A DNA stretch of 46,851 nt from NCBI GenBank assembly GCA_000310025.1, contig FN648739.1:10100-56950 (forward strand), read 5' to 3'. Source of the stretch: Ectocarpus siliculosus. Its lineage: Eukaryota; Sar; Phaeophyceae; Ectocarpales; Ectocarpaceae. The position numbers were made by a program, and so were the translations under genes. The notes beneath the pieces were generated by a model. The model made no database searches and was not told where the DNA came from. It was given only the letters and a program-made list of their open reading frames with translations. This document shows, one piece after another, positions 7,145 through 39,565 of the stretch (within the stretch, counting starts at the first letter, position 1; each line of letters opens with the position of its first letter).

Positions 7145-8965
7145 GCACGATTCATGTAAAGCTCATCGTATTGCCTCATGCGCGGCATGCTGCAGCTTCC
7201 GGCAAACATACAACAAGAACCGGACACCGCTACGCTTCTCCGAACGAGAACCTATGACCTCGTCGTGGATTCTATCCCGGAGTTCGACTACAGAAAGCCT
7301 CGAGGGGATACTAGATTAATGCCTCCTCGGGCCCACGCGCAGACGAAAACGGACAGTTTTCGCCCGGTCTGCCCCCCATTTTCATGGGACAAGACACATA
7401 CCGCTAACCCACATGATTGCGCTTCCTTTTTATCCACACTTTCCAAATCAAGTAAGGCCATAATCAAGAACTGACCCAGTGTACATCCAAGGCATCGACA
7501 TTATGCAATAGGTCGCTCATTCAAGTTTCAAAAGGTGAAAATGATGAAGGTAAGTACTCGGTCATAGCCAGATGGAAGATTTAGACCCTGATGGCAAGGC
7601 CTACACGTATATTTTGCCGGAAACGCCTTGTACGAAACAATGAATGACCCAATATACTTCCTCTGTCCCATAAATCTAGTCGAATATGGGCGACATGTAC
7701 TTATAAGGTACAAAACTACCGTTCTAGTTAGGTTCGTTCGAAGCTCATACCCAAACACCATCCATACTACCATAGATTCCACGCCCGCTTGTGCTCTACC
7801 TTCCCAGGCTAAATCGCTCTTCATTCAACCGAAGAATGCAGTTTACTTCAAGACGGCCAGCCTACGGTCGCTCCCTAAATGATACAGTATGTGTACGCGT
7901 GAAAAAATGCACTTCTCGAATGTATATCGTTCATGTTGCTTTCACTGGTCCTCCACAGACGACAACCAGCTCCATGTCCAACTTGGTGAACTTTCCTGCC
8001 TTCTTTCGCCCTCGTCGACGGGCTCAGAGGTCGTTCACTGCTGCGGCTGTTCACACGTGCAGCCGTTCGGGTCTCCGCTCAGTGTCTTTTCATACCCCGT
8101 ACCGGTCCAACTGACGCAAGAGCCTTCCTCCCGTGGTCACAAGCAAGCACCGTTCTAGAAATGAAATACCGGCAAATACGGAAATACAAAACGGAAACGG
8201 AAACAACCCTCCAAAAGTGAAAATACCTGACCGGAAGACGAGGGAACCCGGCAAAAAATGAAATACCATTCAAACGAACAACAAAATAGAGATGAAGGCG
8301 GGATGCGTTCGCCACCGGGGTTGTTCAGGAAACAGGAAAATACACGTTCAACCCGTCCAAGCTCTACCGTTTCTAGAGATTCTCCTGCAACATCAGAAAT
8401 TTTCTTTACCACGACCATGTCTCGAGTGAAGTCGATCGTTCCCATCCCCGTTGCTTTCTCGTGTTCCCCAGAGTCGCTTCTCTTTCTCACCATAGCACCA
8501 GCAAAAATAAGGAAATAATTCGTGACATGTGATCATGTGTTTCCTTTTCTATTCCTGTTGTCGTCCGTCCCCGTTCAAGCGGCTGCCAAAGGGCCCACAC
8601 TTGCCGAAACAACTCAACAATAATTCTTGGCGCCAAGGCCGACTCTTTCACCACTCGCCCACCTAAATAGCCCCAGTTGAAGGACTACGAGTATCCTATC
8701 AAGACCGACTTGTTCAGCTTATGTTTCACTTTCGCTTCCCATTCGAGGTTTACTTTCGCCGATCACCTTGTTAGCTCCACCTTGCAGACTTCTCCAATAC
8801 ACTTAAGCACATGGTTCCGAAATAATAGCCTGGGGCACCCCAAGGCAATTGCAACTGATTGCGCATGCCCACGCTATTCCTCCGGTTCAAACATCTCGAA
8901 AAACTCTTCATCAAGCAGGGCGAAGATCTTTCATGTTCATGTGCTGCTGGTACACTATTGCTGGA

Positions 8966-11900
8966 CTAGGAAGCGGTGATGGCAGCGGCGGTGATGGTTC
9001 CGTCCGCATTGGCAATAAACTCCTGCCCACCGATGAGCACCTGTGCGAGTGTGAGAGCGCCGCAGAACAGCATCCAAAGGGCGGCAAACGAAAGAGCCGG
9101 TTCAGCACGTTACATACCTAGTTGCCCGAGCCATGAACATTGCATGACAGGATGACTACAGGGCTTCAGGTTGTATCATTCAATACACTATTTACCTCGC
9201 TGCGTCGGCCGTTGTGGAGACAAATTTCAGCAATGTTTACTTGCCGGCTTCGCATTAAAGAGTTGAACCCCGAAGAAGAATACCCCAAACAGTGAGGGAC
9301 TCTTCAACCAGGAGCGCCGTGGAAATGCTTACCTCATCAGCCACCACAAGAGCAACGCATCGTTTGCCGGCGGCGACACCGGCAGGCACGGACACAGTCA
9401 CCGAAAACTCCAGCTCCACGCCGCCTTCAACGTCCTCGTGGCCTTCGCTGGGAACTTGCGTGTGCCCCCAGGAGTTCAGTTCAAAATCTGAATCCCTGCA
9501 GGCCCATTCGATGTCAACCTTGTTATACGTCACCGCCTCGATCCCCTGCGTAGGTCCGTGTGCCACCGCCAAGCGAGGGAATTGGTTATGGGGCGCCCAA
9601 AGGGGTGCCTTCATCTTTAGTATGCGGCTGAAAAGAAACATCTCGTATTGTTGGTTCGAACGACAGCTACAATTCCATGAGACGATGATTTTCGATCGAT
9701 GCTGGTCTCCGACTCCCTGCACCATCGAGCGCGAAGAACCCCAAAGATGGCCGATTGGTATGATATGTATGGTGGGTCTACATGTGGTGGGGCCACCGTG
9801 CACATGCCTCCAGAATCTTCTCGACGATGTCCGAAGAGTCGCTCGAAGTCGTCTCGACGACTCCACCAGTTCCGAGGGCAACCGTGTCCATGTCGTCGCC
9901 CGCCCCAGGAGCCTTGAGGGCAAGGATCTATAATCGTACGAACGGCAAGGCAGGGGCCATTGTGACGTACGTGAAAGAAGCTCTGTGGTGACACAAGTCT
10001 GCCATTCCTTGACCCTCTCGTTCAGTTCACACGAAAGCCATAAACCGTTAGAAGAACGCAAAACAGATTAGTTCCGTGCCTACCAACAGCGTAAAAGGGC
10101 TGTTCGTTGTGTAGTTGACACGTCGCTTGCTGAGCAGAGGCGATATATATTGTTTTAGTCTTTTTTCCGCTTTCCCCGATACATCACGAGCGACGTCTGA
10201 CCTTCTGTCTAATGTAAGTTTCATTCATTTTTCGCATAGACATGTTTCGGTTTCTCTTGATCCGCTGTTTCATCGACTTTTCGAAGTGCGTACCCTATTC
10301 GGGATAGTTGACCCGTGACTACGGAAGACGTCGTTACTGGTCAGCCTCCCTGTCGGCGTCACCTTGATGTTCTTCGCCAAGCAGGTCGAAATAACCTGGT
10401 CGAGAGAATAGTATTCGTCCGCAAGTGCACTGCCGTCGCCAGGTACATGGAAGCTCGCGTCGGTCGTGATGACCAATATCTGAGGAGGGTTGGGCCCGAA
10501 GAATTACATAAGTTGTAGAGTGGTCGCTTGAGTACCTTGTCAGGTTCTCTGCGTATCGGACGTACCGGTAGTACAATTGAAACTCCGCCTAGTATATCCG
10601 AGGGGTGGACTGGGGCTAAAAGTACAGTAATTGTCGAATCTTTCACTGCCAATGGCTGATCAGCACACGAAAAGTGGTGGGCACGCCGCACTAGGCGCGA
10701 AAAGTGTTCCGCCCACTCAAGCGCGGACGAGTTGCGACACGTCCAAGTGTTACCATGTAAAAAATATGGTAGGCGTAGGAACTGCGACAGGTTTGTGCTG
10801 TGTGCACTGGTTCAATGATTGCAAAGAAGTGCGGTGCACTCGTTCTTCGTGTGCGCTGACGCTGACCAACGTCACAACGCATCTATTAGCTCGTACTTTT
10901 GTTACCGCAACATGTACTTCGACCCGTCACGGCTGCAAATGCCACCAATTCGCAATACCCACACCTTGAGGGCGGCGTCGCGCCAGGCCCATCCCTCGGC
11001 CGCGCTGACGAGCGCAACGGTCTGGCTCTCCGGTCCATCTCCACCACTTCCTAACTCGAGAGAATTGACGGCGGAGAGGAAGCTTGCGCGCTCTTCTTCG
11101 AAGCACGCGGAAACTTCCTCTTCCGTCCCTTCGCCGCAGTTTCCGAACGGTTTTAGCTCCGTGTATGCAGAGTCGGTAGAGGACCCCACCTCCTGGGGGG
11201 GGGAATTGGAGTCGGTATTAGATGGAATGAAGCTACGCGATTCGTGGAGCCTCCGTTGTTTTTCGGATTTCTCGTATTCAGCGAATTCGTTCGCGGGAAA
11301 AGCGCGACCATGCCCCATGCAATTGGTCTCAGTTCTAACCAATTATTATCTTGCAGTTGTCGGGGGTTCACCCCGTACCGTAGGACGCAAGGTTGAAGAT
11401 CAATTCTCGGTGAACTGCCGATGGTCGGCCCGCATATAGAGAAGTGTTGATGATCATATCCGAAAAAGTGGCGGGCGCACGGACCGTGTGTGTGGATACG
11501 AACATGTTCAAGGCACAGCACAACTTGCCATCCTGGCCCCGCCCTATTAGTGTGCCGTCGACCCGCACGGTGATACAATGGAGAATACTTCTTTACGCGA
11601 CGGTTGCTGTCTTGCGGCCAGCAGCCGGACATGTAGAGGTGCTTCTGAGCTGCCTCCAAAACACACACGCTCCGATATCCTGCTGCCGCTAGAGAGCTTT
11701 GCCATGCACGGTGTACTTAGCCACCGACGGCCGGGAACGCTTACCCACGTAGCATGTATTACAAAAGAGTGTATCAAAATCCTGCAATAATTTTTGTGTC
11801 TATAAAGACCAACGACATTTACGCCGTGTGCACACAACCACCCCGTATCACAATTGCGATATTTCTCACGGGGAAGTCAGAGTAGCTGCCGAGTGCCAGC

Positions 11901-12289
11901 CGATTATCGTCGACGTCCACCCCGGCACTGTCCGTTGACAATGCTTCCACCAGATCCGCAGCCAAGACCTTAAGATTGGCGATATCGTCCCTGCGTGTTG
12001 TATTTGGCGGAGTGACAGAGGTGTGGGACGCTTGATGCACGCTTGCGGACCGGGCGAGAAAACACACGTAACGGATGGGCTTGACCAGGTTAAAAATTCG
12101 ATGCTCACCCGTAGCTGCCGGAAACATCGACGAGGAGGCCGAAGTCCACGCTTGATTCAGCTAGGCCAGGCACTTGCACCGAAAACGATACGGTCAAGGA
12201 CTTGCGCTCGCCGCCCGCTGGTGCCGCCGAACAAGTAGGCAACGAGTCCATGTATCCGTCGCCGGCGTCTACGGGTCTCATTTCCAAAT
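8966..12289 (-). CDS. VWA domain with integrin-beta I-like motifs and C-terminus (exons 12109-12289 to 8966-9040)
   Basis: The MIDAS motif DVSGS lies in FGLLVDVSGSYG at the end of exon 12109-12289 and runs into DDIANLKVLAADL in 11870-11990, ending LALGSYSDFP. Exon 10965-11192 gives GGDGPESQTVAL. Exon 10363-10479 gives ILVITTDASFHVPGDGSAL. Exon 9808-9927 gives ETTSSDSSDIVEKILE. Exon 9333-9545 gives GIEAVTYNKVDIEW and CVALVVADE. The terminal exon 8966-9040 gives VLIGGQEFIANAD and a TAG. DD after MIDAS, GG-D-PE, TTD-FH-GDG and DSS-IV all follow the order of integrin beta I-like domains. The role is probably metal-dependent ligand binding outside the cell. The intron after 9808 uses a GC donor. 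Confidence 0.7.
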
Positions 12290-15200
12290 CTTCGATCGGA
12301 AACGCCGTGCGTAGGGAAGAGGGAGGGGGGAAGATATTGGTCTGGGTATCGGGCGAAAATACTGTTGTATTCTTATCCCTTACCCAGATCATTCAATGTA
12401 AGTATTGGATTTGGTTGGGTGAGGCCTCCTGCGCCTGCAGGAGGGCCTCGCCACAAGTAACCCTTTGGGCTGGGTGTACCCAGGCCCAAAGTGTTTGAAT
12501 GATCAGCAAGTTCATGAATATAGTAAGCATTGTGTAGGGCGGGTGGGATGGTCTCAAATATACCCCTTCTTCTCTGCTCCGGCGTATTTCGGGAGAGAAA
12601 AGGGGGACTGAACTAGGTGGGGTCATTTTCCAACATCCTTTCTGGAATATCTGACTCTTCTCGATTTCGTTCCGAAATCTAGATGCGTCTCAAATCCGAG
12701 ATTACTGTTGTATTCTTATCCCTTACCCAGATCATTCAATGTAAGTATTGGATTTGGTTGGGTGAGGCCTCCTGCGCCGGTCTGTGGTCCCGCCCATTAC
12801 TTTCTTGTTAATTATCCGATCTGTCACATCTTATTTATTGACCACTCACGCCTCTAAGCTAGGTCTCGCCCACCCAAACTTTCTTATTTTTCGCGGCGAG
12901 CACACGCAGAGAAATCGCATGTGAAGTCAGCCGACAACGGCAACACGTTTGAGTCTGCGTACAGCTCGCTCCGGATCCTCTTGGAACCCGTTGCCCCCAC
13001 ACTAGTAGTGGCGCCAACATATCGCTTCGCTACACTCTCCGTACGCCACCCGGCAATTTTCATGATAGCGTCCATCGCCGTTCCGTCAAGCGACTGCGCT
13101 ACCGAACCTCCAACGCCGGAACGAATGCATAGTGTAGCGGTGCGGCAGTCCCGCCGCTCGCAGATGCCCTTGTAGGGCAGCCGTCATCTGAACCGCCGTA
13201 AGCGGAGCACAGCCCCGAGTTCCATCCAGCAGAACGATAGGAAACAGATGTCCTTGGGACAAATCCCAGCCAATACCCCTCCGCCGCACTGATGTAGGCC
13301 GTAACATTGCTTACAGCACAAATAGACGGGCAAGCGACGTCCGGACGCACGACCACGGCATCAACGGAGTCGCGGAGGGTCTTGCCGAATTGGAAGTTGA
13401 AAATCAGACCCTGCCCCGCGGGCAACCGCAGAACTTGCGATCCCATAGTGAAGGAGAGATCATGGCCTCGCCGCATGGAGGCGAACGCCAGCGAAAACAA
13501 AGCGACGTCCCTGGTGAGCTCAATACGTTCCGCCAAAGAGGACGCAGTCTGCGCGCGAGAGCGCATGTCCCTCAACAGATCGATGAGGACGTGCGGTAAC
13601 ATAGCCTCTGCCTGGTTGACAGCGACACCCACACGTTTTTTGTTCCTCCCCCGTGAAGACGAGGTAGGAGTCGACGAGAGGACTACAACAGGGGTTGCCC
13701 GAGCGCGTGGCAGGGTCCCAGCTGCTGTCTTTTCCCAACTGTTCTTGCATCGCCATCTTCCACTTGGACACGATCCCTTTCTGCATGGACGCGGCAGCAT
13801 ACCGCTTAGCACATGGCGAGTTTGGAAGGCAATCGCGGCCGTGAGTCGTACCGACACCAGGGCATGCCCTGTCGTGCACCCACTTGGTACCACTACCTTG
13901 TGTGTCCAAGAAGCAGAGATAGTCAAACACGTCTCGGTCCGACGCCTGCTTCCAACCCCGACGTTGTTGAGTCGCCGAAAGTATGAAAGCGTCGAACCCG
14001 TCCGCTACGGCGCACTTACGCTGTTGAGCACGACGGTTAGACGCGGCCGAGAGGACCTGATCACCCCGAGCGCGCAGCGCGTCGAAATCGATCAACACCC
14101 GAGCCGCTTGGGGGTCACGCGGTACCGGACGCCCGCGGGCAGGCTGAACACCGCAGGACCAACAATAGTTGTAATGTCCCACGTTTTCCGTCTGGCACGA
14201 CGAACACGCGACAAACTGGACACAGCCGCCCGGAGGCAGGGTGGGGACCTGTGAGACGAAGCACAAGCCATCCACAAGCCAAAGGGAGGGAACTGGGCAA
14301 GATGGACGAGAGTCGCATGCTGCATTACAAGGTACCGGTGTCAATCAAAGAGATTTTTTTTTTTTTTTTTTGAAGAGCGGCGGCCACCTAAGAACAAGAA
14401 CCAAAATCAACCTCGTAAGCTACCATGGACCACCTCGGGTACTTCCACTCTTTCAGGGACCCATCTGGGCAGGGCCACTGGAAATATCCCCCCGCATTAG
14501 GCGGGGAAATCAGCAAAGACCGTACTGCCGCCTGCTGCACTCGAGGGAACCAGTAAGACCTAGAACCCGGTACAACAATAACCGCATGCGCGTGGCACTC
14601 CGCAAGGTGTTGCACTACGTGGCCCGCCATCACCGGCGGCGGGAAACAATAACCGAATGCTCGATCCAGAGAACCTGGGCGCAACGACACGTCTTGGGCG
14701 AAAACATCTACACCCGATGAACCCTCGCAATCATAGCGCGAGAAAAACGGCAGAACAACGTCCGACTCCGGGATACGTTGAGCCGAAGCGTCGGAGGCCA
14801 TGAGGTCGATAGTAAACGGCCCCATGTCTGCCCAGAGAGCCTGAAAGGCCGCCGGGTTGAGCCTGATGATGCCCTCACGCGAAGGGCGAGAGATATCATC
14901 AGCGACGACATTGGCAGCCGACGGGACCCATTTGAGGGACAGCATAAACTCATACTCGACTTGTAGCTCGAACAAACGAACAAGAAGTGCGTGCGTTTCT
15001 GGGTCGCGCGCTCGCCCCCTGTTGAAAGATCCACACACCGCGGTGTTGTCGACGTCGATGAGCACGTGCGCCCGCTGCAAGGAAGCCGGAAAGCGCGCAC
15101 AGAATAGGCGCAACAAGTGGTACAACGCAAACATCTCTTTCTTGTTAATATGTTTGTGTAGCCAATCGTCGGGGAACACGCCACCTGCGCGGTATTGAGC

Positions 15201-18200
15201 TCCCTTAATGTTAATAGCACCACCCCAGCCAAGGGAAGACGCGTCTGATGATCCGTCGATTTTGACGATGAGGTGGCTCGCTCGCTGCCACGGCCCTTCG
15301 TGTGAAGAAGCCGTCAGCGACAGCCACTTCTGGAATTCTTGCCGTAGATCCGCGTAAGCATCACGTGTCAGATCGATCTGACGCTGGTTGGTTTTGTCCA
15401 TCGCGGAAAGGACGGCAAACATGGCATGCGTCCAAAGCGACGCCGGCCGAATCGCCACCGTCATGCTCATGCACTTACCCGCAACGCGCTGCAGCGTTCG
15501 GTAGGACACTCCCCCATCGGCCAGAGCTGTCTGCAGTAAGCCATGCAGCTTGTCCAGCTTCTCTTGCGGGATCCGGAATGTCATCGTCTCCGAATCGCAG
15601 ATGATGCCGAGGTATTGTAGAGCTTTGACGGGTCGAAGCTCGCACTTCTTGAGTGACAGGAACTGTCCGCAGAAGAGCGAAGTCAGCATGGCGACGTGAG
15701 TCGCTTCCCCGGCTGCCAACCACTGATCCCGCGCCGGCCGACCATATGTGGCCAGAAAGTTGCTCCGCCAAGAATCATCGAGGTATGCGAGAGAAGGGGC
15801 GCCTTTGGAACGCTGAAAGGCCGCCTTCGCTTCGCTGAGAGTATGGTAGACGTACGGGCTGAGGCTAAATCCGAACGGGAGGACGCACCAGCAGTAGTCG
15901 ACGCCCTTGTAGGATAAGCCGTTGTAGGAGAAGCAGCCGCCGAAGCCGCCGCCGTGGCGCGCCGCGTGTTGCGAGGCGGCATGTTACGACTCTCGAATAT
16001 ATCCCTTCTCCTCTATAGCTCCGGCGTATTTCGGGAGAGAAAAGGGGGACTGAACTAGGTGGGGTCATTTTCCAACATCCTTTCTGGAATATCTGACTCT
16101 TCTCGATTTCGTTCCGAAATCTAGATGCGTCTCAAATCCGAGATTACTCGGGAAATACGTGCAGACTGTCCGACACGGTGATTTCACCAGTGTCACACCT
16201 TACTTACTCGTAACGTGTCGCCACTATATCATGGCATTTGAGGAAGGAGAGAGCGCGTATACATGGGGAAAACTTACACAGCTGACACAGCCAGGAATCG
16301 ACCGATGTTCCGCCACCGCAGCACCACGTGAACGGCAACGTGTCCTCTGTCTTGTGGTCAGACAACGCGCCGAGTTCCGATTCATGCCTGTTGACGGTGC
16401 CTCCGCCATCAACTGCGTCAACCAGTATATTTCCCGCCGTGTCGTAGCAGCACTGCAACACGTTTCAAACCAGGGTAAGAGCAATGGATATTATGGGCAG
16501 ACTTTCTGGATGGTGCATGCCAATAATTGTCGGCGGATTTTCATGAGCAATCAATTCGTGCTTGTGAAATTATACCTACCCGAACTGCCGTTCTCTCTTC
16601 ATGAGAAGATCTCTGAACAGGGGTCACATAGATTGTTGTGTTAAGGTTATTCGGGTGGACAAGGAAGTCACCATAGCCTCTCTGCTGTGCTCAGCTGGAA
16701 AACGTCATCCACTAAAATCCGACACCATCAGCGCGAAGCGCTTTCGGCGAGATTATGGGGTCTCGATGGTGCTTCACGCACATCAGGCACCGCATGGAGA
16801 AAAGACACCACCTAAGGAAAAACAAGTTGCTCATCTGAAGTCCAGTCGTCCCAATAGTGGGGTAAAACAATGCTCGAGGCACGACCGAAGAACAGGTTAA
16901 GTTGTGCGTCATAGGAGGTTCTAAAGTGAAGAAATATCGATACGCACCATCTGGCCAAGGGGTCGAGCACTAGAGCTTTACGGTTGTGGCGCGGCTTCAA
17001 GTCTTCTCGCAGATTTCCGGCCGGTGCCAAACGCACAGAAAAGTTTCAGGGACTCATACGGCCGGCCGCACACACACCTGGTTGCCGATGCCGGTGTTGG
17101 TGCCACCACTCGTGGCCTCGTTTGAACGCACACAGAACTCCGCTCCGGGGTGTAGGTCGCATGCCGGGGCAACTGATTTGCCGAGCGTTTTGTCCCAAAA
17201 CCATGCCGTAACGCCATCTCGTTTACACGACACGATTTCTCGGTCGTCTCCAGCGGAATCAAACATGCAGCTCCCGAAGGGACACGCTATGTCGTTTTTC
17301 CACCCGCTGATCAAGGAGTCCGATTCCAGGACCGTGTAGGTGAAAGTTGCCGCTCCACTCTATGGCATCATCCACAGATCGGCAACGTCCACCGCACAAG
17401 GTATGGGAAGCAGGGGTTACAACGATGACAGGTCACCTGTTGGTTCACGGTGTCTCGGCTCAGCCGCTCAAGTACAAAGTGACATCGAGTACGTTCCTGA
17501 GGTCGTCATGAGGATAGGTTAAAAATAATTACATACGGAGAGCGTGAAGCAGGCACTTGATAGACATGCGTCATACGTAGGTTCTCGGCCAGAGGGGCGT
17601 ACTTGGAGGATGTTCATGTTGCAACACAACGTTGAGCATGACCTCCAGGAGAACTTGCGTTTGAGGAATGTCGGCATTCGTTTGCATACGTTCGTACTGA
17701 ACTCGCTCTGGGAAATGCGACCTTTTCGTTCGTTCGTTGAGCTCAACAACTTGCCCTTGGTACTTGGATCAGTCATCGGTTCTCGGTGACGTATATCCTT
17801 GCATTCCAGTGTAGCGACTTGGTGATGATATTACACTGTGCCTACCGAATACGTAGAAGCAATCTCCTAGTTCAACATTCTATACTTTTTTTAAAGCAGA
17901 AGTCCTTGCGACACGTACATCTTGATTTTAGTATGCATAGACCATGCTGTTGGCTTTTTTGCCCCAAATTTGACTTCTTATTGCATTTTGTCGCCCTCGT
18001 AAATCATCCAAGACGCCTTTCATGTTTGCGTGTGAAAATGCACACATACAGTACATGCTGAGACCATTGCCCGTAAAACATAAAGCCCGTGCTTCCGTCG
18101 CGCTCATCGGCGAGATTATGGTGGGGCACGCCCGTGGAAACGAAAAAAACTGACATTTCTTACTTTCTTTCGTATCCCGAGTTTGTTTACGTATCATCCC

Positions 18201-21200
18201 TGTTTGACTTCATACTGCACACGGACGATCTGACACGCCATCCACACACTTCCAGCACATGTCGTTCCAAGTTGAGTTAGGGATGGGATGCCACCTCCTG
18301 TTGCGAGTTGCATGCCATCGCCTACCGCCAAAAAGGGAAATTGATCAATCCAATCAACCAGTATTATCATCATTTTTTTCTTATTTATGCATTTTATGCG
18401 TATGACACAACGAATCCATCTCTCTGTAGAAAAGCATCCAAGATAGATTGAATAGCAATGAATCCTAGCGTCAGCAAACCGCCCTCTACTCGTCCTACTC
18501 GTCTATCGCGAAACGATAACTGTTGCACCGCGTCACACGACTGGTGTTGCCTTCCATTCTCTTACTAACTTGTGGTGTGCCTTTCGGCATGCCTCCATCA
18601 CAAAAACGATTCTCCAAGAGTCAAATTCGACAGACGGTAGATGACACGCGTGAGAAATGCCACTCAGACGGATCGTTCGTCGAAATTCGATAGCTTCCCA
18701 CGCTCATATGACGATACCCCACACAGTTTTCTTTCAATCGGATCTACATGTAGTACCCACACGCCAAGACTATTGTGTGATCCCGGTGCGCGTCCCGCCC
18801 CACGGGCAGGCGGCCGCCTTACCCTAGTAGTTATCTATCTCCGATACACCGCGGCTTTCGGCGCAGTGTCGACAGCAACAACCTCAAGCAAAATGCAACT
18901 AAATACATACCGTGGATAACGTGACGAGACCTGGCGGTGCTTGCAAGATGCAGCCAATGGTCGACGGGCAGCGGAATTCCTCATCGAACATATCGAGCTG
19001 AACACCGCGGCCTTCCTTGACTTTCTCCGCTGCGAAAAAGCACTGGCATCTGAAAGGAAATTGGGTATTTATCAGACCTCTTGGATGCGAACTACTCGAA
19101 TGTGAAGCCTAACTCGGTAGCTGCGTAAGGTTAGGGCAAACGCACAGGTATACGCAGGGGCCTGGAACACAATTCCGCTTGCACAGACAAGTCGTGGGCA
19201 TGGGGCTGCGTTGACCATCGACTATATTCATTCTACCTTTGAACCACTGTGACTCAAGCAAAATATATGTTTGACGTAGAGCAGAACATACTCTGATTGG
19301 TGACCTGTCATTTGTGATGCTCTCCATCAACAGGCGATCGAATAATACCCAAGGTCGACCATACCTAGGTGAACCTCATCGCGATTTGTGAGGAAGGCAT
19401 CAGGTGACGACGATTTGGCGCATAAAACAAGGGTTTATTGCGTTACAGCCGTGGTTGCACTAGAGGAAGACCTCGTAGACGCCTGCCCCAGACTGACGAT
19501 GCATGACCGTAATTACATGTAACCCAACCTCGCTTTCCAGTGCCGCCTATTGTGCCGGAGTACACTTACCTCGAGTAGTCGTCGGCAAACGCTGTTCCAC
19601 ACAGGGTCGTGCTGGACTCGTTCCCGTCAAGATCTTCAATCCATTCCAGTTGGCCCGTGGTCACCATCTCGGGGAAAACGATCGGGTCGATCCCACTGTC
19701 CTGGAGACGACGTGTGAGGCTCGCGGTGCTGCCGACAATCTGCAGCAGGGGGAGGAACCCGGCCGCATGAATTATGTGCGCTTCTGTGGATATGCATCAT
19801 CGTATCAAACTCTTGATATGTACGCCACTGGTGCTTTCATTTGTCCGTATGGTGTAACATAATAACTCGCGGACACCACCAACTCGCAAACTCCCTACAT
19901 CCATACGTCTGTCTTCCAAGCGCGAAGTGTGAACCATTTCAAAGAGATTCCTCCAGAATATACATATTCATGTAGCTGCCGCCAATTTTTCCGCCGACGC
20001 CCAGTGATGTTATTACCGTAGAACACGGGCACTAGAGGGTCCCCGACAAATAACATGCACGAGCGGCAGCAGCCCAGAGACGAGCAACGAAGCACAATAA
20101 TTGAGATCGCCGGAAAGTTACCTTGAAGAAGACGTCGCTGCCGTCAAGGTCAAATTCGTCCAACGAAGTGGACGGGATGAGGTACGACCCCGTGTTGGGC
20201 ACCTCGACCAAGACAGCGACATCTTCAAAGCTTCCGGTGTCCTCCATGATAAGCGCCAATACAATCTCGACGGAATCAGCCGAAATAGATGACGCGTCCC
20301 AATCCAGCTGGAGATCGGAAGGAGGGTCCGTGATGACCGACGAGCGCGGGGCACCATCGGTATCGCTCACGCTGGCGAGAGGGGACTCCAAAAGGCTGAC
20401 GAGGTCGTACAGCATGATGTTGCCAACAATTATCTTCCCGGTAGTAGAACTAGCCACCACCGTCACGCCTAGCACGCCGATAAATATGGCGTTTCCAAAC
20501 ATAAATACGCGTAGGGGGAGAGAGAGAATGGTATGGTTCAGCAGACTTACCGGGGAGCTTTCGACCATGTGTCCTTGTCCCCGCTCGATTGGCCGATAGA
20601 ACACCAGTCCAAGACTGAAACTCTTGGCGGGTGCATCCAAGAGAGCGGGCTGACAATGACCTCATGAGGCAGTACGATCGAGGGGTAGGACTCGCTTTCA
20701 CTATCCGCAACAAGCAAGGGCGTCTCACTTGTGGTATCCGTGGGCAACGACGGCAAGGTGAACTGTGCGGTAGCAGCATCGATGACGGTTCCGGCCACGG
20801 CCTCCAAGCTGCGGGGGGGGGAGTAGCATGCACGTTGCAGGGTGACTACAAGAGGGTTATCCGAACGCGCCACACCTCGGCAAAGGTCTTCCCATATTGG
20901 TGTCATACAAGGCAGTCATCTGAGCCTGCCCCACTATGCCAAAGTTAAACAAAGAGTGCTTCAATCAAATGTCCACCCGTATTCAATCTTTCCAGTCTTG
21001 CCGAGGACTTGTTCCGCGTGAACAGGTTGGTAGCACTTGCGCAACGGCGCACATTACAGGTTTGATTATGTACTTACAGATCGTCTTCGCCGACAGCAAA
21101 GATTTCGAAGATGGCGGAGGGGTCGAACTCGCATAGAGACGATGTCACCGTCAACGACGATCCACCGAGAATTGTTGGTACTGTCGTCGCTTCCGTCAGC

Positions 21201-24200
21201 TCCATTGTGCACACGGTGTCGTCTGCGTAAGGGAATCAAGCGAGGGGGTATCACGTCGAAAATAGATTGCAGAGTAGATAAATTGGAAATCCATTAGTAC
21301 CTTCTGAGACGAACCAATCATAGTTGTCGTTATACAATGATTGCATTCTGTGCTGAAGTGACCTCGCGCATCTTGTATTTAGCGATGGTTTTCGCGACCT
21401 CACACGAAACTCTCCTTCTTGCATGAAAAGTGTTCAAGGTTCGCCAAGCAAGGTGCGGGTATGAATTCCGTAGTCGAGCTATCGTGGAATTCCGTCGTTA
21501 ACTATTCGACGGCGATTTCTTGAACAGGGAAATCAACCGTCCACACCGTTGGTAGATATGAGGAATTCAGGTGTGATCCAGCTATCCATGCCGGGCAAGC
21601 AAGTGTGTCACACGCTGACAAACTACCGCTATTGGCTACCGTTACACCGAGATTGCCGGTCGTATATGTGGATCGGTCGGAAGGAAACTGAATACCTGCA
21701 CGTACAGAACGTTTGGTGATCCACTTTGGCGACTCAGGGACACGTACCTGAGACCGGGGCAATCATCGGTGTGGGAGTTGACGCTGACGATGGCACAGGC
21801 GTCGCCCCTTGTGAAACACATGACGGAACAATAAGCCGATGCCAACAAAGGAGCAAGAAATGTCGGACGAAAGACAGACGGAGGGAGAGGAAACAAGTGT
21901 TCCATGAGTTTGGGGGGAGGCCAGAACGTGGAACACTTCATCGCCGTCATACTGACTACGACTCAGAAAACGTGCACACATTTTGCTTTGAGGTTTTTCA
22001 AAACGCTTGTCAAACGTTTGTTTCTAGCTTCATTTCTGGTCACGGGACATACAGGGTCCAAGGAGGAGGGCAAACGACCCTCGGGACCGCTCGTACCACT
22101 CGGGAATCCGGCTAAACTGAGGAGCCTTAATTCTAGCTGACGGTTTCAGTTTTTCGTCAGGTAGTTCAGAGATACGGTGTCGGTCAAGCAAAGCGCACTC
22201 ACCGAAAATCAAGACGAGACAGCGCGAAACGCGGGGGCAATTCGCCGATCAGTCAAAGAGTCGATAACCGTCCTGCAGATGGAACACAACATCCGCTGAC
22301 CTCGTATACATAGGCACAACAGGCGCCCCTGCTACGTGAGCTATGACGGGGTGCTCAAAACCCTCGCCATACCGGGGTGCTCAAACCCATTGTCAGTCTT
22401 GCTGTTCTGATCATCATCAGGATATCCAACCTGCAGCACGAAGCACGTACAGTTTCGAGGAGCCACGAATATCAAGTCGTGTACAGTGGACGGTGTTCAG
22501 GTCTCCAAGATATGTGATGCTCAGACATACTAAAGGTTTGGCACAAAGCGGCAACGGAGCACCGCTTACCTTCATCTGAAGGGGGTAGCGTAGGGGCCGG
22601 CGTTGGCTCCGGCGTAAGGGCCGGGCCTGTTTCACAAATAGTGCAAGCATCCGTTCATAGTATTGTTGGCGCCGTGTTGCCAGACAAGAGGACGTTCAAC
22701 GGCATATGTCGATGATGCATAGAACCGGAACGTTAGGATTCCGATAGCGCTGCCTGTTTCGGATGTGGTCTGAACATTGCCGTATCAACAAGTGCCTGAG
22801 CGGAGAGAATTCTGGCTAGCCGTTTCAACTTAATGTTAGGTTTTGAATGCTTAGTACGAACATCAAGATTCCCACCGTTCGAACTACCTCTCCAATATCG
22901 AGTGAGAGCACGGGGGAGCTACGATTATCAAGTCGTGCACAGTGGACGGTGTTCAGGTCTGCAAGGCATCTGATGCTCAAGGCATACTATAGGTTTTGGC
23001 ACCAAAGCGGCAACGGAGCACCGCTTACCTTCATCTGTAGGGGGTGGCGTAGGGACCGTTGGTTCCGGCGTAAAGGCCGGGCCTGTTTCACAAATATTGC
23101 AAGCATCCGTCCATCGTATTGTTGGCGCCGTGTTGCCAGACAAGAGGACGTTCAACGGCATATGTCGATGATGCATAGAACCGGAACGTTAGGATTCCGA
23201 TAGCGCTGCCTGTTTTCTGATGTGGTCTGAACATTGCCGTATCAACAAGTGCCTGAACGGAGAGAATTCTGGCTAGCCGTTTCAACTTAATGTTAGGTTT
23301 TGAATGCTCGGTACGAACATCAAGATTCCCACCGTTCGAACCACCTTTCCAGTATCGAGTGAGAGCATTGGGGAGCTAATGTTTCTGCAGTGACTGAGGG
23401 CCCAAAGTCGGAGGAGTCAACTCTAACGACATAACTTCCAAGAATGTAAGTTCGTCACTTCGGTGTTCGAACAAAGCGCCGTTCGATACTCTAGACTCAC
23501 CAGTCACAACGCAGGGTGCTTCCCCCGTAACAGAGCAATCGCGGCCGGAGGCCCTGACTCCTCCACCACAGCAGGCTTCGGATCCACCGTCTCGGGAAGT
23601 GCACCCGGTACCTCCGCAAGATCCGCAGCTTAAGGAGCAGCATACATCGCTCTGCTGGATGCCGACAATTCCGCCGTCGCACATCGGAACTGTTCGTTTC
23701 GGATAAAGACGCGATTCATATCACAGGCGTGCCATTTCGCAGAGTTAAGTTCAAGTGAGAAGACGCCGCGCAGACGTCAGGGCCGGTCTTAACGAAGAAT
23801 CGGTTCTCGATTTCGAATTTGATTATAAGAATACAAGAGCCGGATCTACCCAAATCCGGACAGAAATGGCCTGTGTGTCTTAACGGGAGATCTGCCAAAT
23901 GGAAACGAATTTCTGCAGTCCACCACGAACAACCCGAGAGGTCCGCCGCTTGCCAACTGCCAGATTGCTGTTGTGACGTACTGCTATGACGTGGCCACAC
24001 CACATGGGGAGCTATCGCTCCCGAGAAGCACACACCAAACGCGTACATGGTCTCTGTGTGGTACTGACACGATGTCTATGCATGTGATACTTTGAATCGA
24101 CCCTCGTCCGACGGAAAGCCGCCAATTCGTCTGTGCATTTGAAGTTCGTCAACCCACGGGAGATTGCCCCACAGACCAACACATACATCCCACACACGTT

Positions 24201-27200
24201 TTTTTCGGGACCAGATGCTGGTGATGCTCCTGGTCACGTCCCCCGCCTTGCGAATAGGACATTCTTCCTCTACTGCTCTTGCGCAACAAGGTGCCCCACC
24301 GTGGGTGTGCCTGTGCGCACTCCGTGCTGGATTGGTGTCGCGGCTTGGTGTGGCGCCTTGCCACGGCACTACTTTCTTTGCGTCAGTGCGTCACTTGCCG
24401 TCGACTGGACCGCTAATGTTCGAAGTTGGTTTCGTTTCACCCAAATCGGGATCCGATTAAATCATTTTACCTTTATTTTGATTCCCGATTTGGAGAGAAG
24501 GGAACCGATTATAAGTCCTAAAGATTCCACGGGTTCCAGAACTTTTAGCCAATCAACAAGAGAGTTCTTTGGATCTTGTGGTCTTATAATCAAATCGGGA
24601 AGTGAAATCGGGAACCGATTCCTTCGTTAAGACCGGCCCTCATAAATGGTCAACCCCGCACTCGCTGGGATCTGGCGTCGTTGTCTGCGAGTTGAGTCAG
24701 CTTGAAGCTTTTTTTTCGGCTTCGCATAGCGCTTGTTCAGATATCGACAATCAGTCAAGCACCCTCACAGATAATGCAAGACGTGGCAGAGCGAAACGTG
24801 TGGGCATTTGTGGATCAGTCAAAGAGTCGATGTCCGTCCTGCCGATGGAACACAACATCCGCTGACCTATAGCACGTCAGAATCATTTCCAATAGGTGCG
24901 GCAGGGGTCCCGCCTACATGAGCTATGACGGGGTGCTCATAGACCGTGTCGGCCTACTGATCATCATCAGGATATCGAAGCTGCAGCACCACGAACCTGC
25001 AGTTTCGAGGAGCCACGATTATCAAGTCGTGTGCAGTGGACGGTGTTCAGGTCGGCAAGGTATCTGATGCTCAAGACATACCGTAGGTTTTGGCACAAAG
25101 CGGCAACGGAGCACCGCTTACCTTCATCTGTAGGGGGCGGCGTAGGGGCCGGCATAGGTTCCGGCGTAGGGGCCGGGTCTGTTTCACAAATGGTACAAGC
25201 GTCCGTTCATAGTATTGTTGGCGCCGTGTTGCCAGACAAGAGGACGTTCAACGGCATATGTCGATGATGCAAGAACTGGAAGTTAGGCTTCCGATAGCTG
25301 TGCCTGTTTCGGATTTGGTCTGAAAACTGCCGTGTCAATAAGTGCCTGACCGAAGAGGATCGTGGCTGCAAGGTACATGTGGGGTCCTGGAGAAGCTAAA
25401 TTCTAGATGGCCTTCTCAATTGTTCGTTAGGTCTTGATTGGTGAGTACGAACATCACGCTTCACACCCTCAAACTACAGTACCTCCCCCAAAACAGAGTG
25501 AAGGCACGGAACATAACCCATATACGGTGACCGAGGTATCAAATTCGGAGGAGCGTTTCCGATATGCTCACTGGTCATGCAGGGAGCTTCTCCCGTTACA
25601 GAGCAATAGCGACCGGAGGCCCTGACTCCTCCACCACAGCAGGCTTCGGATCCACCGTCTCGGGAAGTGCACCCGGTACCTCCGCAAGACCCGCAGCGTG
25701 AAGAGCAGCATATATCGCTCTGCTGGATGCCGACAATTCCGCCGTCGCACATCGGAACTGTTCGTTTCGGGTAAAGACGCGATTCATATCACAGGCGTTC
25801 CATTTCGCAGAGTTAAGTTTAAGTGACAAGACACCGCGCAGACGTCACAAATGGTAAATCCCGCACTACCCGGCACCTGGTGCTATGGTCGGTGAACTGA
25901 TTCACCTTGAAGCGCACTTTGCACCTCGCCATGTCCTCACCATAGCTATCGTTCAGAGATAAGACAGTCAGTCAAGCAAAGCCCACTCACAGATAACGCA
26001 AGATGTGACAGAGAAAAACGTGGGGGCATTTTGCGGATCAGTCAAAACGTCGATGTCCGTCCTGCCGATGGAACACAAGATGATCTGGCCTACAACGAAA
26101 CCGTTAAATATAGGCACGACAGGCGCCCCTGCTATATGAGCTATGACGATGCGCTCAAATCTCTTGTCAGTCTTGCTGTTCTGATCATTGTCAGGATATC
26201 GAAGCTGCAGCACCAAGTACCTGCAGTTTCGAGGAGCCACGATTATCAAGTCGTGTACAGTGGACGGTGTTCAGGTCGGCAAGATATCTGATATACTGTC
26301 GGGTTTGGCGCAAAGCGGCAACGGAGTACCGCTTACCTTCATCTGTAGGAGGCGGCGTAGGGGCTGGCGTGGGTTCTGGCGTAGGGGCCGGGCCTGTTTC
26401 ACAAATGGTACAAGCGTCCGTTCATAGTATTGTTGGCGCCGTGTTCCCAAAGAAGAGGACGTTCAACGGCATATATCGATTTATAGAACCGGAACGTTAG
26501 GCTTCAGATAGTTCCGCCTGTTTCCGATTTGGTCTGACCCCATTGTGCCAACAAGTGCCTTAACGAATTAACGAAGAGAGTTGTAGCTGCATAAAGGTTC
26601 ACTGAGAGTAAAATTCTAGATTGCCGTCTCAACTTTTCGTCAGGTCTTGGTTGGTCAGTACGAACATCACATTTCACCCGCTCAAACTACAGGACCTCCC
26701 CAAAACAGAGTCAGGGCACGGAACGGAACATATACATATGCAGTGACCGAGGTCTCAAATTCGGAGGAGCGTTTCCGATATGCTCACCGGTCATGCAGGG
26801 AGCTTCTCCCGTAACAGAGCAAAAGCGACCGGAGGCCCTGACTCCTCCACCACAGCAGGCTTCGGATCCACCGTCTCGGGAAGTGCACCCGGTACCTCCG
26901 CAAGACCCGCAGCTTGAGGAGCAGCATATATCGCTCTGCTGGATGCCGACAATTCCGCCGTCGCACATCGGAACTGTTCGTTTCGGATGACGACGGTATT
27001 TAAGTCACAGCCGTCATACATCGTAGAGTTGAGTTCAACTCAGCAGACGCGGAACAAGCGGAGTATTGGTCAATCCCGCACAACCTGGGACCTGGCGTGG
27101 TCGTGGGTGAGTAGTTTCAGTTTTATAGCTCATTTCGCGCCTCACCATAGCCATGGTTCAGACAAATCCAAGATGTGACAGAGCGAAACGTGGGGGCACT

Positions 27201-30200
27201 TTGAGCATCAGTCAAAACGTCGATGTCTGTGCTGTAGATGGAACACAGCATGTCATACATCGAAACCGTTCAATATTGGCGGGACAGGGGTCCCGGCTAC
27301 ATGAGCTATGACGGGGTGCTGAAACCTCGCCAGTCTTGCTGTTCCGATCATTATCAGGATATCCAAGCTGCTGCACCAAGCACTTGCAATTTCGAGGAGC
27401 CACGATTATCAACTCGTCGTGTGCAGTGGACGGTGTTCAGGTCGGCAAGATATCTGATGCTCAAGACATACTGTCGGGTTTGGCGCAAGGCGGCGACAGA
27501 GCACCGCTTACCTTCATCGGTAGGGGGGGGCGTCGGGGCCGGCGTAGGTTCCGGCGTAGGGGCCGGGCCTGTTTCAGAATGGCGCAAGATCCGTTCATCG
27601 TATTGTTGGCGCCGTGTTGCCAAAGAAGAGGACGTTGAACGGCATTTGTCGATGCATAGAACCGGAACGTTAGACTTCCGATAGCGCTGCTTGTTTCCGA
27701 TGTGGTCTGACCCTGATGTGATAGCAAGTGCCTGACCGAAGAGAATCGTAGCTGCAAGATACATAGGTCCCGGAGAAGCTAAATTCTAGATGGCCGTTTC
27801 AATTGTTCGTCAGGTTTTGATTGGTCAGTACGAAAACATCACGTTTCACTCGCTTAAAATGAAAGTTTGTTGTCGAAGACCGAATAAACTGTAGTTTATT
27901 GTGCACGGAAGAATTCGGAACATCTCCCAGATCTACGGTTGTATTTGAGTTCTTGTTGTGGCGTGTTGGTTGGGTTGTCTTGGTTTGGTTTTCTGGGGTC
28001 TTGCAAAAAGAAAGGTCTCACGGAATTCTCATTCTGCTGCCTCGCTGCTCCTGCATCAAGAGTATGATAGACGCGTGTCTACTGGACCAAGGGCCACGTG
28101 TTGAGGAATGCACAGTGTGTAACACGCAGCCCGCGTCGGAGGGTCACGCGGGAAGGAGGGCAGCAGCTAGCTACATCGAAGTTTGGACCCGTAGCTAGCA
28201 GAAATTCGTAGCTTTTCTCCCGCCCACCCACCCCTTTTCTTTCGAAGGTGGGGGATGGGAGATGTTACGAGTGAGGACTCACCTAGAAGAGGCATCTAAA
28301 TATTTCTGTGACTCGGAATTGGTGCAACCGTTTGCCACGTAGAAGTATGGCGTAGCATTGGGGTGTTTTCTGAATGGTAGTGTGCGTACCATTGGGAGGC
28401 ATTGGGGTGTTTTCTGAATGGTAGTGTGCGTACCATTGGGAGGCTCAATCGTCCGAGACTGCTACTGTGCAACAGTTTCGTCCCGTCTGGTAGTATTCGG
28501 AGGGAGATTTTGTGTTTAGAAGCAGAGACACGTTAGGATACCGCAGAGGCTTTGTGCCGTGCGGAACGTGTGGTACGGGGGATGTCTCCCTCCGTAGGCC
28601 ACAGAAATATTAATCAAGGCAATTCGAAAGAAAACAAAAAACTGCAGTACCTCTTCACAACCGAGTGAGGGCACGGAACGGAACACATACATGTGCGGTG
28701 ACCGAGGTCTCAAATTCGGGGGAGCGTTTCCGATAGGCTCACCGGTCATGCAGGGAGCTTCTCCCGTAACAGAGCAAAAGCGACCGGAGGCCCTGACACC
28801 TCAACCACAGCAGGCTTCGGATCCACCGTCTCGGGAAGTGCACCCGGTACCTCCGCAAGATCCGCAGCTTGAGGAGCAGCATATATCGCTCTGCTGGATG
28901 CCGACAATTCCGCCGTCACACGTCTCAACTGCTCGTTTGAGGTGAAGACGTCATTTGAATCACAGGCGTCTTAGAAGAGGTGAGTTAAAGTCGGCAGACG
29001 CGGAAAAACCGTATATATTGGTCGATCGTGCACCCCTGGAACTTGGCGTCGTCTTTGGCGAGCTATCTCGCTTGAGACTCACGGCTTACCTTGATCAAGG
29101 TTTACAGATACGACAGTTAGTCAAGCAAAGCACACTCATAGATGTGCAAAACGTGACGGTACGAAACGTGGTGAATTGCAGATCGGTCAAATAGCCGATG
29201 TCTGTCCTGCAGATGAAGACAACATGCGCTGACGTACATCAGAATGATTTCAAATGGGCGCGACAGGCATCCCGGTTACATGAGCCATGACGTGGTGCAA
29301 ACTAACAAGCGAAGCTGTTGTCGGAGACGGAATAAACTGACGTTGGTTCAAACGGAAAGAGTTGTAACGCATTACGGTTGGCTACAGACATGTGAGCACA
29401 TTTCGCGTGCCCCCAATACCTTCTGGATACTAGCAAAGAGAGCACGCGTGGGCCGTAGTCGTCGACTGTTATGCTCGTGAGCGCGAGAGAGGACAACGAA
29501 GTACGTGAGCACGTCGAAGGATTGGAACATCGGCCAACGTAGACAAGTGGACACATGACGTAGTAGTGTCTTTTTCCTTCGGGCTGGAGGTGAGGCACCA
29601 GGCGCGGAACACGCTTGGCTGGCACGCAACAACATCTGGTCGTAGAGGCTCACTTTGTCAGGTGGATGCTGAAGAGAATGAGACGCGCCAAGCGTGCCGC
29701 GAAACCCTGAATCCTTTCTCTACTGCTACCGTTCTCTTCAGCCGGTGTTGTGCACGACAGCCGCGGCTCAGCTGTGGCGGCATACGCGGTCGCACGCATG
29801 CCCTAGGAGCACGCGCGGGGAACCGCTACCCGACGAGAAGTGAAGAAAACAATCGTAAAAAAATCGTACGTGATACGAGATACCACACACCCTGGGGCGA
29901 CTCAACAGACTTTACGTGCCCCGTTATTGTGCGCGTCCGGAGTGCGAAAAAAATTCAAAGTCCTTTGAATGGCGCCCTGTTTCTCAGCCTGAGGCCGGCT
30001 TCACACTCAAGTCGATCCCGAATGCAAAAATCAGAAGTCGCTTGCACGGCGCCCTGTTACTGAGCGTGGGGCTGGCTTCGGCCACCGTCGCACTCTCAGT
30101 TGATTGGCCGGTTCCGGAGGGCAGTGATGACGATATGGCATAGTATCATCTCCACACAAAACGTTATCGATCAAGGAGGGGCGGTAGTGAATATTATTAG

Positions 30201-33200
30201 GCCCGCGGAGAAGGGTCTGCAGGAAGTGGAGAGACCATTCGATGGAGACATTTCGGCGGTCAACCAAAATGAACGGTGGCGGCGTCCTTCCGCCCAACCG
30301 AAGGTCACCCCCAGAACACTTCGGCGCGACCTGAGTATAGCGTTGAAGCGCCGACCACTCTACCCCAAGCAAAGGAGCCCCGCGTCAAGTCGACTATTTC
30401 TGGTCTACAGCTGCAAAAGACGAGCGGCTTTTTAAACCATAGAGAGGGGGCGCGTGCGTCGGGAGTAGCAGAGGAACAGAGGGTATTCTGGGATAATCGG
30501 GTCTGCTTCAATACACGCGCGCTTGAAGACACGGGGAAGACACCATAGATCACGTGCGCCATATGGCCAATGGTTGTCGCCATGCTCTCACCAACTAGGG
30601 ATGACAAGCATACCATGTTGTCGGCGTTCGTCGCCCCCTCTACTTCGTACCTTCGGCCTGGAGGCTGCGCAAATTGATGTTGATCGTTCCATTGTCGGCG
30701 AGAAGTTCGACGTTTCCCTGTTGACAAAAACGGTTTAAGCAAGCAAGGGTTTCGAACACGTCGACGTACTCTTCAACCGGAGAAATCTTGTCCTTCTACT
30801 TGCCTATGACGCAGCGCGCGTAGTCTCAACAGTGGCCCGAGCCAAGGGTTTCATCCGCATTTAAAGCCTTGTGTCAACGGCATTTGTCGTGCTGTCATCC
30901 TTAGCATTATAGGTTAAAAACCAGGCAATACTCCAAAACGCGGCGAGAAAAAAGCGTTGGGTAGCCACCCAATATGAAGTGGAAGCCAAACTGTAGTGCG
31001 ATTTTATCAAGACGAACAAAGCAAAGGTCCGAACTAGCGCTTCCCAAGTGACAACTCAGATCTTCAACGAAAATAGAGGTCGAACACCGCCGCTGGCGTT
31101 GGTGTCTACATGTGGCACATACCTAACAAAGCGGTGAGAAGGACACCACCCTACACCTGAGGTACCTGAGGCCGCACGTGACCACGAGTGGTGTGCAGAG
31201 GCCTCTACAATAAGGCTTCATCGAAACAATGAGGGTGGACAGCGATGCGCTGCCATACTTAACATGGCCTGCGGCACGTTGGCGCCGTGAACACGTGAAA
31301 TCTATTGAGCTCTAAACCTGTTGTTGATTGGCCCCAAGCCGAGTGCTGCTGGATGAGCACGGCTGTCCCGTTTGACAATGTGAAGAGATGGTAAAGTCGT
31401 TTTATTGGTCGTCCTCGTAGACACAAGCAACGGAAGAGAGTGGGCACTCAGGTGCATCACAAACACCGAGGCACGCGAGCAACAGTCGCAAGACGCATTC
31501 GGAACTCGGAATACATGACAGCAAGGAATGCGCGACAACTTGCCAAAGATCCTACTACCGGAGATACCCCGAAGATCCAAATGACCGATGGACGGTCACG
31601 CACTTGCGCACCTGCATAGCTCAAAACCACACATGAGTACTACCGCAGTAGCCTTCGTAAGGATGGCATAATCCACCTCACGAACACCCTCCCTGATTCT
31701 GTACATCATAACGAATGCTCTCAAAACCAAAGCGCTCAGGGTACTCATAGAAAACTCCAAAAGGAAACAAAAATAAAACAAACGAAGGGAAACCCGGCCA
31801 CCGGATCAAAACCCTCCGCCCCCACGGGTCATCCTGCTGATTGAACTGTCAACACAATCAACACAGCAGTCACAAAGTTGCAAACCTACACGTCTACAAC
31901 TGTCAGGCATTTGTACTACCCCTTTTCAAGTAGTCCCCTCCCAGCCAACAGGATCCCTACTGTATCGAGTTGCTGTCAGCACCGCGGCGCGCCTAAGGCC
32001 ACAAGCACCAATGCCAAATTGCAGCGGAAAAACGTAAAACCTAACGCTACATCGCTAAATGACATTTTTATAGAGGGCGATCAACCAAGAGGAAGATCAA
32101 GCAGTATCTCAACCACAACGGTACCCCGCTTCGAGAGACACTGGACCTAGACATTTTTTCGCTACTCCTTCACAAGTAACTCCCTCCCAGCAACAGGATC
32201 CCTACTGCTGTATCCAGCTGCTGTTAGCAACGGGGCGCGTCTGCAACCAACCCCGATCACCATTGTCGATCACATGACAGTGAGGGGTGCCCCCCTCGGT
32301 CTGTACATCAATGAAAGATCATATAAAAGGGGCAATCAACCACATGTTAGGGGAGGGTGCCCCCTCTCAGCCTACACATCAGAGGACGATCGAAGCAGCA
32401 TATCAATCACAAACAGTTCATCAACCAGCCTGCCGGTACCTGCTAATATGAGAGACGCTGGTAGCCATCTATCACGGAAAAAGGCGTCATTCATCAGCCC
32501 TCCCTGATTTCAGGCGAAATAATTCCGAACATCATCAATCAAATTGGTGTGACCGCAGTGCCCTGCGGATCACCATTCCTCAAAGTGAGACGACAACGGA
32601 ATGCCACACCATCCTCAGTATTTCATCGTGCAATAAGCCTCATCATGGCTCAACCTACGCGGTTAGTTACTGAGATGCGCATGGTATACCGGACAGGCAA
32701 CATCGAGTTTCGTGGACTGCGTTCGTATCCCGATCGAACACACAAGAAAAAAACAACGAGCGAACGGCGGAAAAGTAACAGGCCAGAAAAAATTCCCCTT
32801 TGTACTTTCGTCAGTCGTATCATCAAAATCGGCTCTTTATGGGGGAATGCCGACGAGCCGAATTGCACGCAAGGCACGAAAGCGAACGGGCGTTGATGCC
32901 CCGCTGGGAAAACAGAACTAGACAACATCAGAGTGCTTCGTATGCGACGTCCAACTCGACACCACCGCCTCCAATCGCGGCGACTGCAGTTTCAGTTCTC
33001 GATGGGCATTTTTTCGCGTTGTGCCCCTTTTTTCCGCACCTCTGGCAAAGCTTCTCTGGGCATGCACTCGCATAGTGGTCACCATCACAGATGTAGCACT
33101 TGACTCTCTTGTCGCTAGCTAAATTCGCCTCTTCGTAACCTCGGTTTTGTTTCGGACGTCTCTTTCCTCCCCCCTTCCCCTCTACTGCTACGAACGCATG

Positions 33201-39517: not shown

Positions 39518-39565
39518 CTCTAGAGTTTAGATTGATTGTCCCTCGAGGGATAGCCGCATCGGGTC

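Follow-up and report, generated by a model that had tools for sequence, protein, structure and literature searches.

The predicted 26-exon gene

The window, namely the whole stretch of 46,851 nucleotides from Ectocarpus siliculosus analysed here (contig FN648739.1, positions 10,100 to 56,950), contains on its minus strand a predicted gene that starts with an ATG at 35054 and ends with a TAG at 8966. Its 26 predicted exons (Table 1) join in phase to 3822 nt, a multiple of three, and are separated by 24 GT-AG introns and one GC-AG intron. The first-pass annotation, made from the sequence alone, had claimed a span of 8966-35054 with 26 exons of consistent phases, and our model likewise has 26 exons joined in phase, with the start and stop codons at exactly those bounds. 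A single internal stop codon (TGA) is found in exon 3, and the remaining 25 exons are open. When this stop is counted as one place, the predicted protein has 1273 residues, 64 of which are Cys, and is composed of a signal peptide, the part encoded by exon 2, an array of four 10-Cys modules and their Pro/Thr linkers, a pre-AMOP stretch, an AMOP domain, an integrin-beta VWA domain, and an end of 95 residues. Indeed, the signal peptide, the 10-Cys modules, and the Pro/Thr linkers noticed in the first pass are all encoded in the joined model, and the motifs follow one another in the order described there: CCYD at residue 865, LPFTWCC at 903, LYLEMRP at 922, DVSGS at 977, GGDGPES at 1073, TTDASFHVPGDG at 1104, and DSSDIV at 1168.

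Exons 3-12, which encode the Cys modules and the linkers, are all in phase 1-1, and the pre-AMOP stretch of about 350 residues is encoded by exons 13-17 with exon 14 included. After exon 23, other joins were also considered, namely a read-on into 10362-10303, a PFYAVG exon near 10090, and a VKEW stretch near 10030; these were dropped because contig C21 breaks their frame and contig C272 passes directly to exon 24. In the intron after Cys module 1, a 44-nt unit occurs as a tandem pair (28362-28443). Neither structured RNA nor tRNA was found in the whole window by Rfam and tRNA scans.

Table 1. Predicted exons of the gene and the mobile elements in its introns (positions in the window)
Feature	Position	Strand	Evidence or remark
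Exon 1: start codon and signal peptide, 38 codons	34941..35054	-	same exon on C417, C303, C229, C207
Exon 2: links signal peptide to array, phase 0 to 1	30651..30717	-	kept in C417, C303, C229, C207
Exon 3: Cys module 1, in-frame TGA	28743..28928	-	C417 without this stop
Exon 4: Pro/Thr linker, phase 1-1	27512..27568	-	gene model
Exon 5: Cys module 2 (10 Cys)	26788..26973	-	module search and gene model
Exon 6: Pro/Thr linker	26337..26393	-	gene model
Exon 7: Cys module 3	25572..25757	-	module search and gene model
Exon 8: Pro/Thr linker	25122..25178	-	gene model
Exon 9: Cys module 4	23501..23689	-	module search and gene model
Exon 10: Pro/Thr linker	23029..23082	-	gene model
Exon 11: Pro/Thr linker	22570..22626	-	gene model
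Exon 12: Pro/Thr/Ser linker	21748..21807	-	similar Pro/Thr stretch before exon 13 in C21
Exon 13: pre-AMOP stretch begins	21078..21222	-	conserved in C21, Ka 0.044, Ks 0.247
Exon 14, doubtful: 258 nt, phase 2-2	20551..20808	-	open here; frame break and stops in C21
Exon 15: pre-AMOP stretch	20122..20449	-	conserved in C21; no Pfam hit
Exon 16: pre-AMOP stretch	19570..19739	-	conserved in C21
Exon 17: pre-AMOP stretch, Cys-containing	18911..19049	-	conserved in C21
Exon 18: AMOP, first part	17078..17359	-	Pfam AMOP over cut-off
Exon 19: AMOP, second part (CCYD...TWCC)	16278..16452	-	Pfam AMOP over cut-off
Exon 20: LYLEMRP (AMOP end), pre-VWA strand, DVSGS	12109..12289	-	Pfam Integrin_beta; PDB alignments
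Exon 21: VWA first helix and GSYSD strand	11870..11990	-	Pfam; PDB alignments
Exon 22: VWA two-Cys loop and GGDGPES	10965..11192	-	Pfam; PDB alignments
Exon 23: VWA, TTDASFHVPGDG	10363..10479	-	PDB alignments
Exon 24: final VWA strand and helix, with DSSDIV; donor GC	9808..9927	-	same GC donor in C21, C272
Exon 25: position of integrin hybrid domain's second half	9333..9545	-	conserved in C21 (Ka 0.019), C272
Exon 26: C terminus and TAG stop	8966..9040	-	conserved in C21, C272
LTR element, gag-like ORF, in intron 1	31322-34659	-	absent from C417
Mobile element, RT-like ORF, intron between exons 19 and 20	12354-16148	-	absent from C21 at same site

As regards the hydropathy of the joined protein, the threshold of 1.6 was reached only by 19-residue segments of the signal peptide; outside it, none of the 1217 segments did so. 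The highest value among the latter, 1.54 at residues 1241-1259, is close below the threshold, and this segment holds charged residues. The earlier claim of a signal peptide and no membrane anchor is supported as far as a membrane helix is concerned.

The near-identical contig C417 (99.7-99.8% identity) has neither the stop codon in module 1 nor the LTR element in intron 1; it may be another allele, or a duplicate that arose either recently or in the assembly. The terminal repeats of this LTR element are identical over 300 nt, and its absence from the near-identical C417 points to a recent insertion. The mobile element located between exons 19 and 20 has direct repeats in a split arrangement, 131 nt long at 12576 and 16018 and 82 nt long at 12354 and 12697, together with an RVT_1 match below the cut-off, a layout that resembles that of Ngaro-type tyrosine-recombinase retroelements. 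Outside the gene, the plus strand has an open copia-like ORF at 39554-44029, which is 1491 residues long and matches integrase and Pol over the cut-off.

Paralogous loci and the Cys-module family

When the joined protein was used as a query against the genome, three copies were found, namely the window itself, C21, and the more distant C272. Exons 13-26 were mapped singly to C21, and 13 of the 14 were found to keep their length modulo 3; in C21, these 13 exons are bounded by AG and GT at the same places, with GC instead of GT after exon 24, and the GC donor of exon 24 is common to the window, C21, and C272. Over 757 codons without exon 14, the comparison of the window with C21 gave a Ka of 0.065 and a Ks of 0.186 (Ka/Ks 0.35, Fisher p 2.8e-12). 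As controls, the wrong frames had Ka/Ks values of 1.03 and 1.75, and the introns other than those after exons 17, 19, and 20 had values from 0.74 to 0.98. Furthermore, only one gap (3 nt) was present in the 2294 nt of the 13 exons, in contrast to 125 gaps in 5717 nt of intron, from which the intron after exon 19 with its insertion was excluded. Judging from these substitutions, the AMOP-VWA part is under purifying selection. As for exon 14, Ka and Ks against C21 are 0.126 and 0.123, with a frame break and stops in C21, and the exon is by the same measure unconstrained; given its length of 258 nt and phase 2 at both ends, it would be skippable without harm to the frame. In exons 1-12, the comparison between loci covers exons 1, 2, and 3 and the module exons.

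Exon 1 is also present on C417 (100% identity), C303 (89%), C229 (74%), and C207 (66%), all of which carry Cys-module exons, and three weaker matches were found on C472 and C479. Exon 2 is free of gaps in C417, C303, and C229 and has two gaps, of 9 and 6 nt, in C207. The Cys module had been proposed as a novel one, and this still holds after our search, in which no family in Pfam or NCBIfam was matched. In the genome, on the other hand, 136 matches to the module were detected at E up to 1, and AG and GT were found at the phase 1-1 positions of all 14 distinct module copies obtained by a pattern search of the window and the extracted loci. For exon 15 taken by itself and for the Cys module, structure prediction gave a mean pLDDT of 39.0 and 41.4, respectively. 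On C4 (5399571-5436873), 27 Cys-module matches are located on one strand within 37 kb, perhaps forming a cluster of genes or a single array gene of great length.

What the array and the head are joined to varies among the paralogs. C303 shares the Cys array with the window (91-95% identity in the best blocks), and the similarity continues down to 21508, beyond which other exons are found (region 7835-10000 of the C303 extract): namely, a stretch with a CCNHDYC motif (no Pfam hit), which is reminiscent of phospholipase A2, and a piece that we call only VWD-like, as two frame pieces combined scored 20.6 bits against the VWD cut-off of 22.9. In C21, the Pro/Thr stretch upstream of exon 13 is itself preceded by pieces that are WSC-like only, the one short exon piece scanned having scored 22.6 bits against a cut-off of 27.8; farther upstream, 6243 positions are N, which may be a gap. 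In C272, a Cys module is located upstream of the VWA, Pro/Thr-rich stretches are also present, and AMOP was not found in the 20 kb examined of this 36 kb contig. The paralogs join the same array or head to WSC-like or VWD-like parts, or have the head without AMOP, and probably constitute an exon-shuffled family. Also, a long Thr/Pro repeat (TTPAPTSVGG, TTPTPTTVTASPG) with the look of a mucin-like stalk is located downstream of the Cys-module array in C229 (1-1600 of the extract).

AMOP domain and integrin-beta-like head

The AMOP domain (PF03782), which is best known from animals and had been recognised in the first pass, was also detected by a profile search, with 25.2 bits against the curated cut-off of 25 in the window protein (E 2.1e-5) and 26.8 bits in C21; the margin is thin, but two paralogs pass, and the match spans positions 47-107 of the 143 in the profile. 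None of five shuffles of this region matched AMOP. The AMOP proteins named in PMC4902942, namely MUC4, SUSD2, ISM1, and ISM2, share the AMOP Cys pattern with the window protein. In MUC4, however, AMOP is accompanied by NIDO, vWD, and EGF domains (PMC4902942), whereas the integrin-beta VWA comes directly after AMOP in the window protein. Judged by titles and the starts of abstracts, no report of an algal AMOP domain was found in the open-access literature, and no mention of AMOP in choanoflagellates was found there, either. A stramenopile host is supported by another exon of this genome, which matches PDB 4b0n, the polyketide synthase III of Ectocarpus siliculosus, at 90 of 90 residues. The locus places an AMOP domain in a stramenopile, and its fusion to an integrin-beta VWA seems to be new.

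The assignment of the VWA to the integrin-beta type also stands. Integrin_beta (PF00362) matched the window protein with 37.7 bits (cut-off 24.8, E 2.5e-9) at profile positions 4-154 of 248, and C21 and C272 with 35.4 and 34.7 bits, while none of five shuffles of the VWA region matched it, one of them giving an unrelated sub-threshold hit. When the PDB was searched with the window VWA, all 60 matches at E up to 1 were integrin beta chains (best E 2.5e-4), and the alignments run from DVSGS through GDG. With a profile of the three paralogs, integrin beta chains made up 59 of the best 60 among 62 matches (best E 1.8e-5), the single other one being an NADH dehydrogenase chain, and C272 alone gave 56 integrin chains among the best 60 of 61. 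The strand preceding the VWA was found to align with beta-8 in the search with the three-paralog profile, and the beta-3 matches begin at the same place; no PDB match was obtained with a profile of the part before the VWA. Neither the later half of the VWA nor the protein end matched integrin by sequence, and a profile of this part gave three unrelated weak hits. The only family hit of the exon 25 region was sub-threshold (PF10633, 18.0 and 19.3 bits against a cut-off of 24.4), and from its position this exon may encode the other half of a hybrid domain.

In the alignment with beta-1, DVSGSYGDD, GGDGPESQ, and LVITTDASFHVPGDG of the window VWA are paired with DLSYSMKDD, NLDSPEGG, and LVFSTDAGFHFAGDG, respectively. 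The metal-site residues are kept, namely DxSxS and the following DD, the Asp of GSYSD, DxPE, and TTD, and we assume that the paired motifs correspond to MIDAS, ADMIDAS, and the third metal site of integrin beta. The Asn two places ahead of DxPE in beta-1 is replaced with Gly; C272 does not have the first of the two Asp in DD, and its alignment shows neither the Asp nor the Pro of DxPE. As far as the sequence can tell, the VWA head would work like an integrin head. Nonetheless, no Pfam hit to a PSI domain or EGF repeats was obtained at E up to 1 in the entire 1273-residue model, which is also devoid of a transmembrane helix (by hydropathy) and a cytoplasmic tail (the stop at 8966 being 95 residues past the VWA exons). 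Because the EGF repeats, the membrane helix, and the tail were looked for and not found, the predicted protein is considered not to be an integrin subunit.

The integrin beta headpiece (hybrid and beta-I-like domains, PF00362) has the same MIDAS-type DxSxS, DD, DxPE, and TTD and the same pre-domain strand as the window protein, but in the latter the head is at the C terminus of a predicted secreted protein with no EGF repeats, membrane helix, or tail, and the second half of the hybrid domain is not recognised by sequence. The Sib proteins of Dictyostelium (vWA_SIBA-E, PF24909), which are membrane proteins, likewise possess an integrin-beta-like VWA outside animals, and C272 gave a weak hit to this family (15.5 bits, below the cut-off of 27). 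Scans of viral, bacterial, and archaeal contigs with patterns from the three paralogs, two short patterns each that could miss some, revealed no relatives.

Integrin-like sequences have nevertheless been described before. An Ectocarpus protein of 348 residues, CBJ33612.1, was aligned in 2011 with residues 99-358 of human integrin beta-3 at 23% identity (PMC3192720). It is of the same genus and matches the same part of the beta chain as the window VWA; it may be the window locus, C21, or C272, and AMOP and the Cys array go unmentioned in its description (PMC3192720). The same paper presents an alpha-like sequence from Ectocarpus, which can be aligned with human alpha-V, and also an integrin-beta-like sequence of the cyanobacterium Trichodesmium erythraeum, which likewise matches the head region of the beta chain and has neither EGF repeats nor a membrane segment but is bacterial (PMC3192720). 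The alpha-integrin-like proteins of brown algae were reviewed together with talin and alpha-actinin in PMC8307928, where an animal-like pathway was doubted, and a kelp transcript was annotated as integrin beta 1 (PMC6742357). An integrin-beta-like head in Ectocarpus is therefore not new, and the first-pass view of the locus as a candidate undescribed system is weakened (PMC3192720); it is the AMOP fusion for which novelty seems to remain.

Proposed role and alternative readings

The locus is probably a member of a small, exon-shuffled Ectocarpus family of secreted modular matrix proteins with a metal-dependent head, and from its sequence we infer a function in adhesion or in the matrix. Given the signal peptide and no membrane helix, the protein is proposed to be secreted into the cell wall matrix. 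The array of Cys modules and linkers would form a stalk and might also bind glycans, as the C21 paralog carries WSC-like pieces upstream. Since the integrin metal-site residues are conserved, furthermore, the VWA head may bind an acidic group of a partner via a divalent metal ion, by which wall polymers would be linked to a protein of the matrix or the cell surface; the partner may be an integrin-alpha-like (FG-GAP) protein.

It is unlikely that the window copy is a decaying pseudogene and that only the paralogs work; the in-frame stop in Cys module 1 and the mobile elements in two introns would fit such decay, but the other 25 exons are open, both elements are intronic, and the near-identical C417 has neither the stop nor the LTR element. 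Constraint over the 757 codons also argues against decay, as a pairwise measure in which the window branch alone is not separated and with exon 14 broken in C21. The model might instead have joined two adjacent genes, one for the Cys modules and the other for AMOP-VWA, given that C303 follows the window with the same array down to 21508 and then has different exons. The reading frame, however, stays in phase 1 from exon 2 to exon 12 and continues correctly into exon 13, a like Pro/Thr stretch precedes exon 13 in C21, and a Cys module is upstream of the VWA in C272, so that we regard two genes as quite unlikely.

The head and an FG-GAP alpha-like protein might form a true alpha-beta receptor, in which the alpha chain alone is anchored; the integrin metal-site residues kept in the head, the FG-GAP exons detected in the genome (six matches), and the alpha-like sequence known from Ectocarpus (PMC3192720) would all be consistent with this. 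Such a receptor is nonetheless rather improbable, considering that the model is without EGF repeats, a transmembrane helix, and a cytoplasmic tail and that brown algal integrin-like molecules were judged unlikely to act as they do elsewhere (PMC8307928). Least of all do we expect the protein to be secreted for recognition, in defence or in gamete contact, with its array and C-terminal domains swapped between paralogs to vary the ligand. Domains are indeed swapped among the paralogs, related module exons are many (the 136 genome matches at E up to 1), and exon shuffling has been reported for candidate immune receptors of brown algae (ROCO; PMC11378527); the AMOP-VWA part is, however, under apparent purifying selection and is therefore ill-suited to fast-changing recognition. 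We thus prefer the secreted modular matrix protein.

A bolder reading, which we put forward as an unlikely one, is that brown algae have an integrin-type adhesion of their own, in which a soluble, wall-held beta head with AMOP and swappable Cys or WSC-like modules would bind in a metal-dependent manner to an FG-GAP alpha-like membrane partner. If this were true, the integrin head would be far older than, or have been acquired outside, the animal and amoeba lineage and would have been reused for multicellularity.

In conclusion, we have described a locus with an AMOP domain and an integrin-beta-like head in a brown alga. Cell-wall attachment in brown algae and the place of integrin-like parts in their own multicellularity were raised as a question in PMC8307928, and the locus is a concrete candidate for it, with an exon map, two control paralogs, and conserved metal-site residues in a model genus. 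These features of the predicted protein suggest that seaweeds built their own integrin-like matrix protein.
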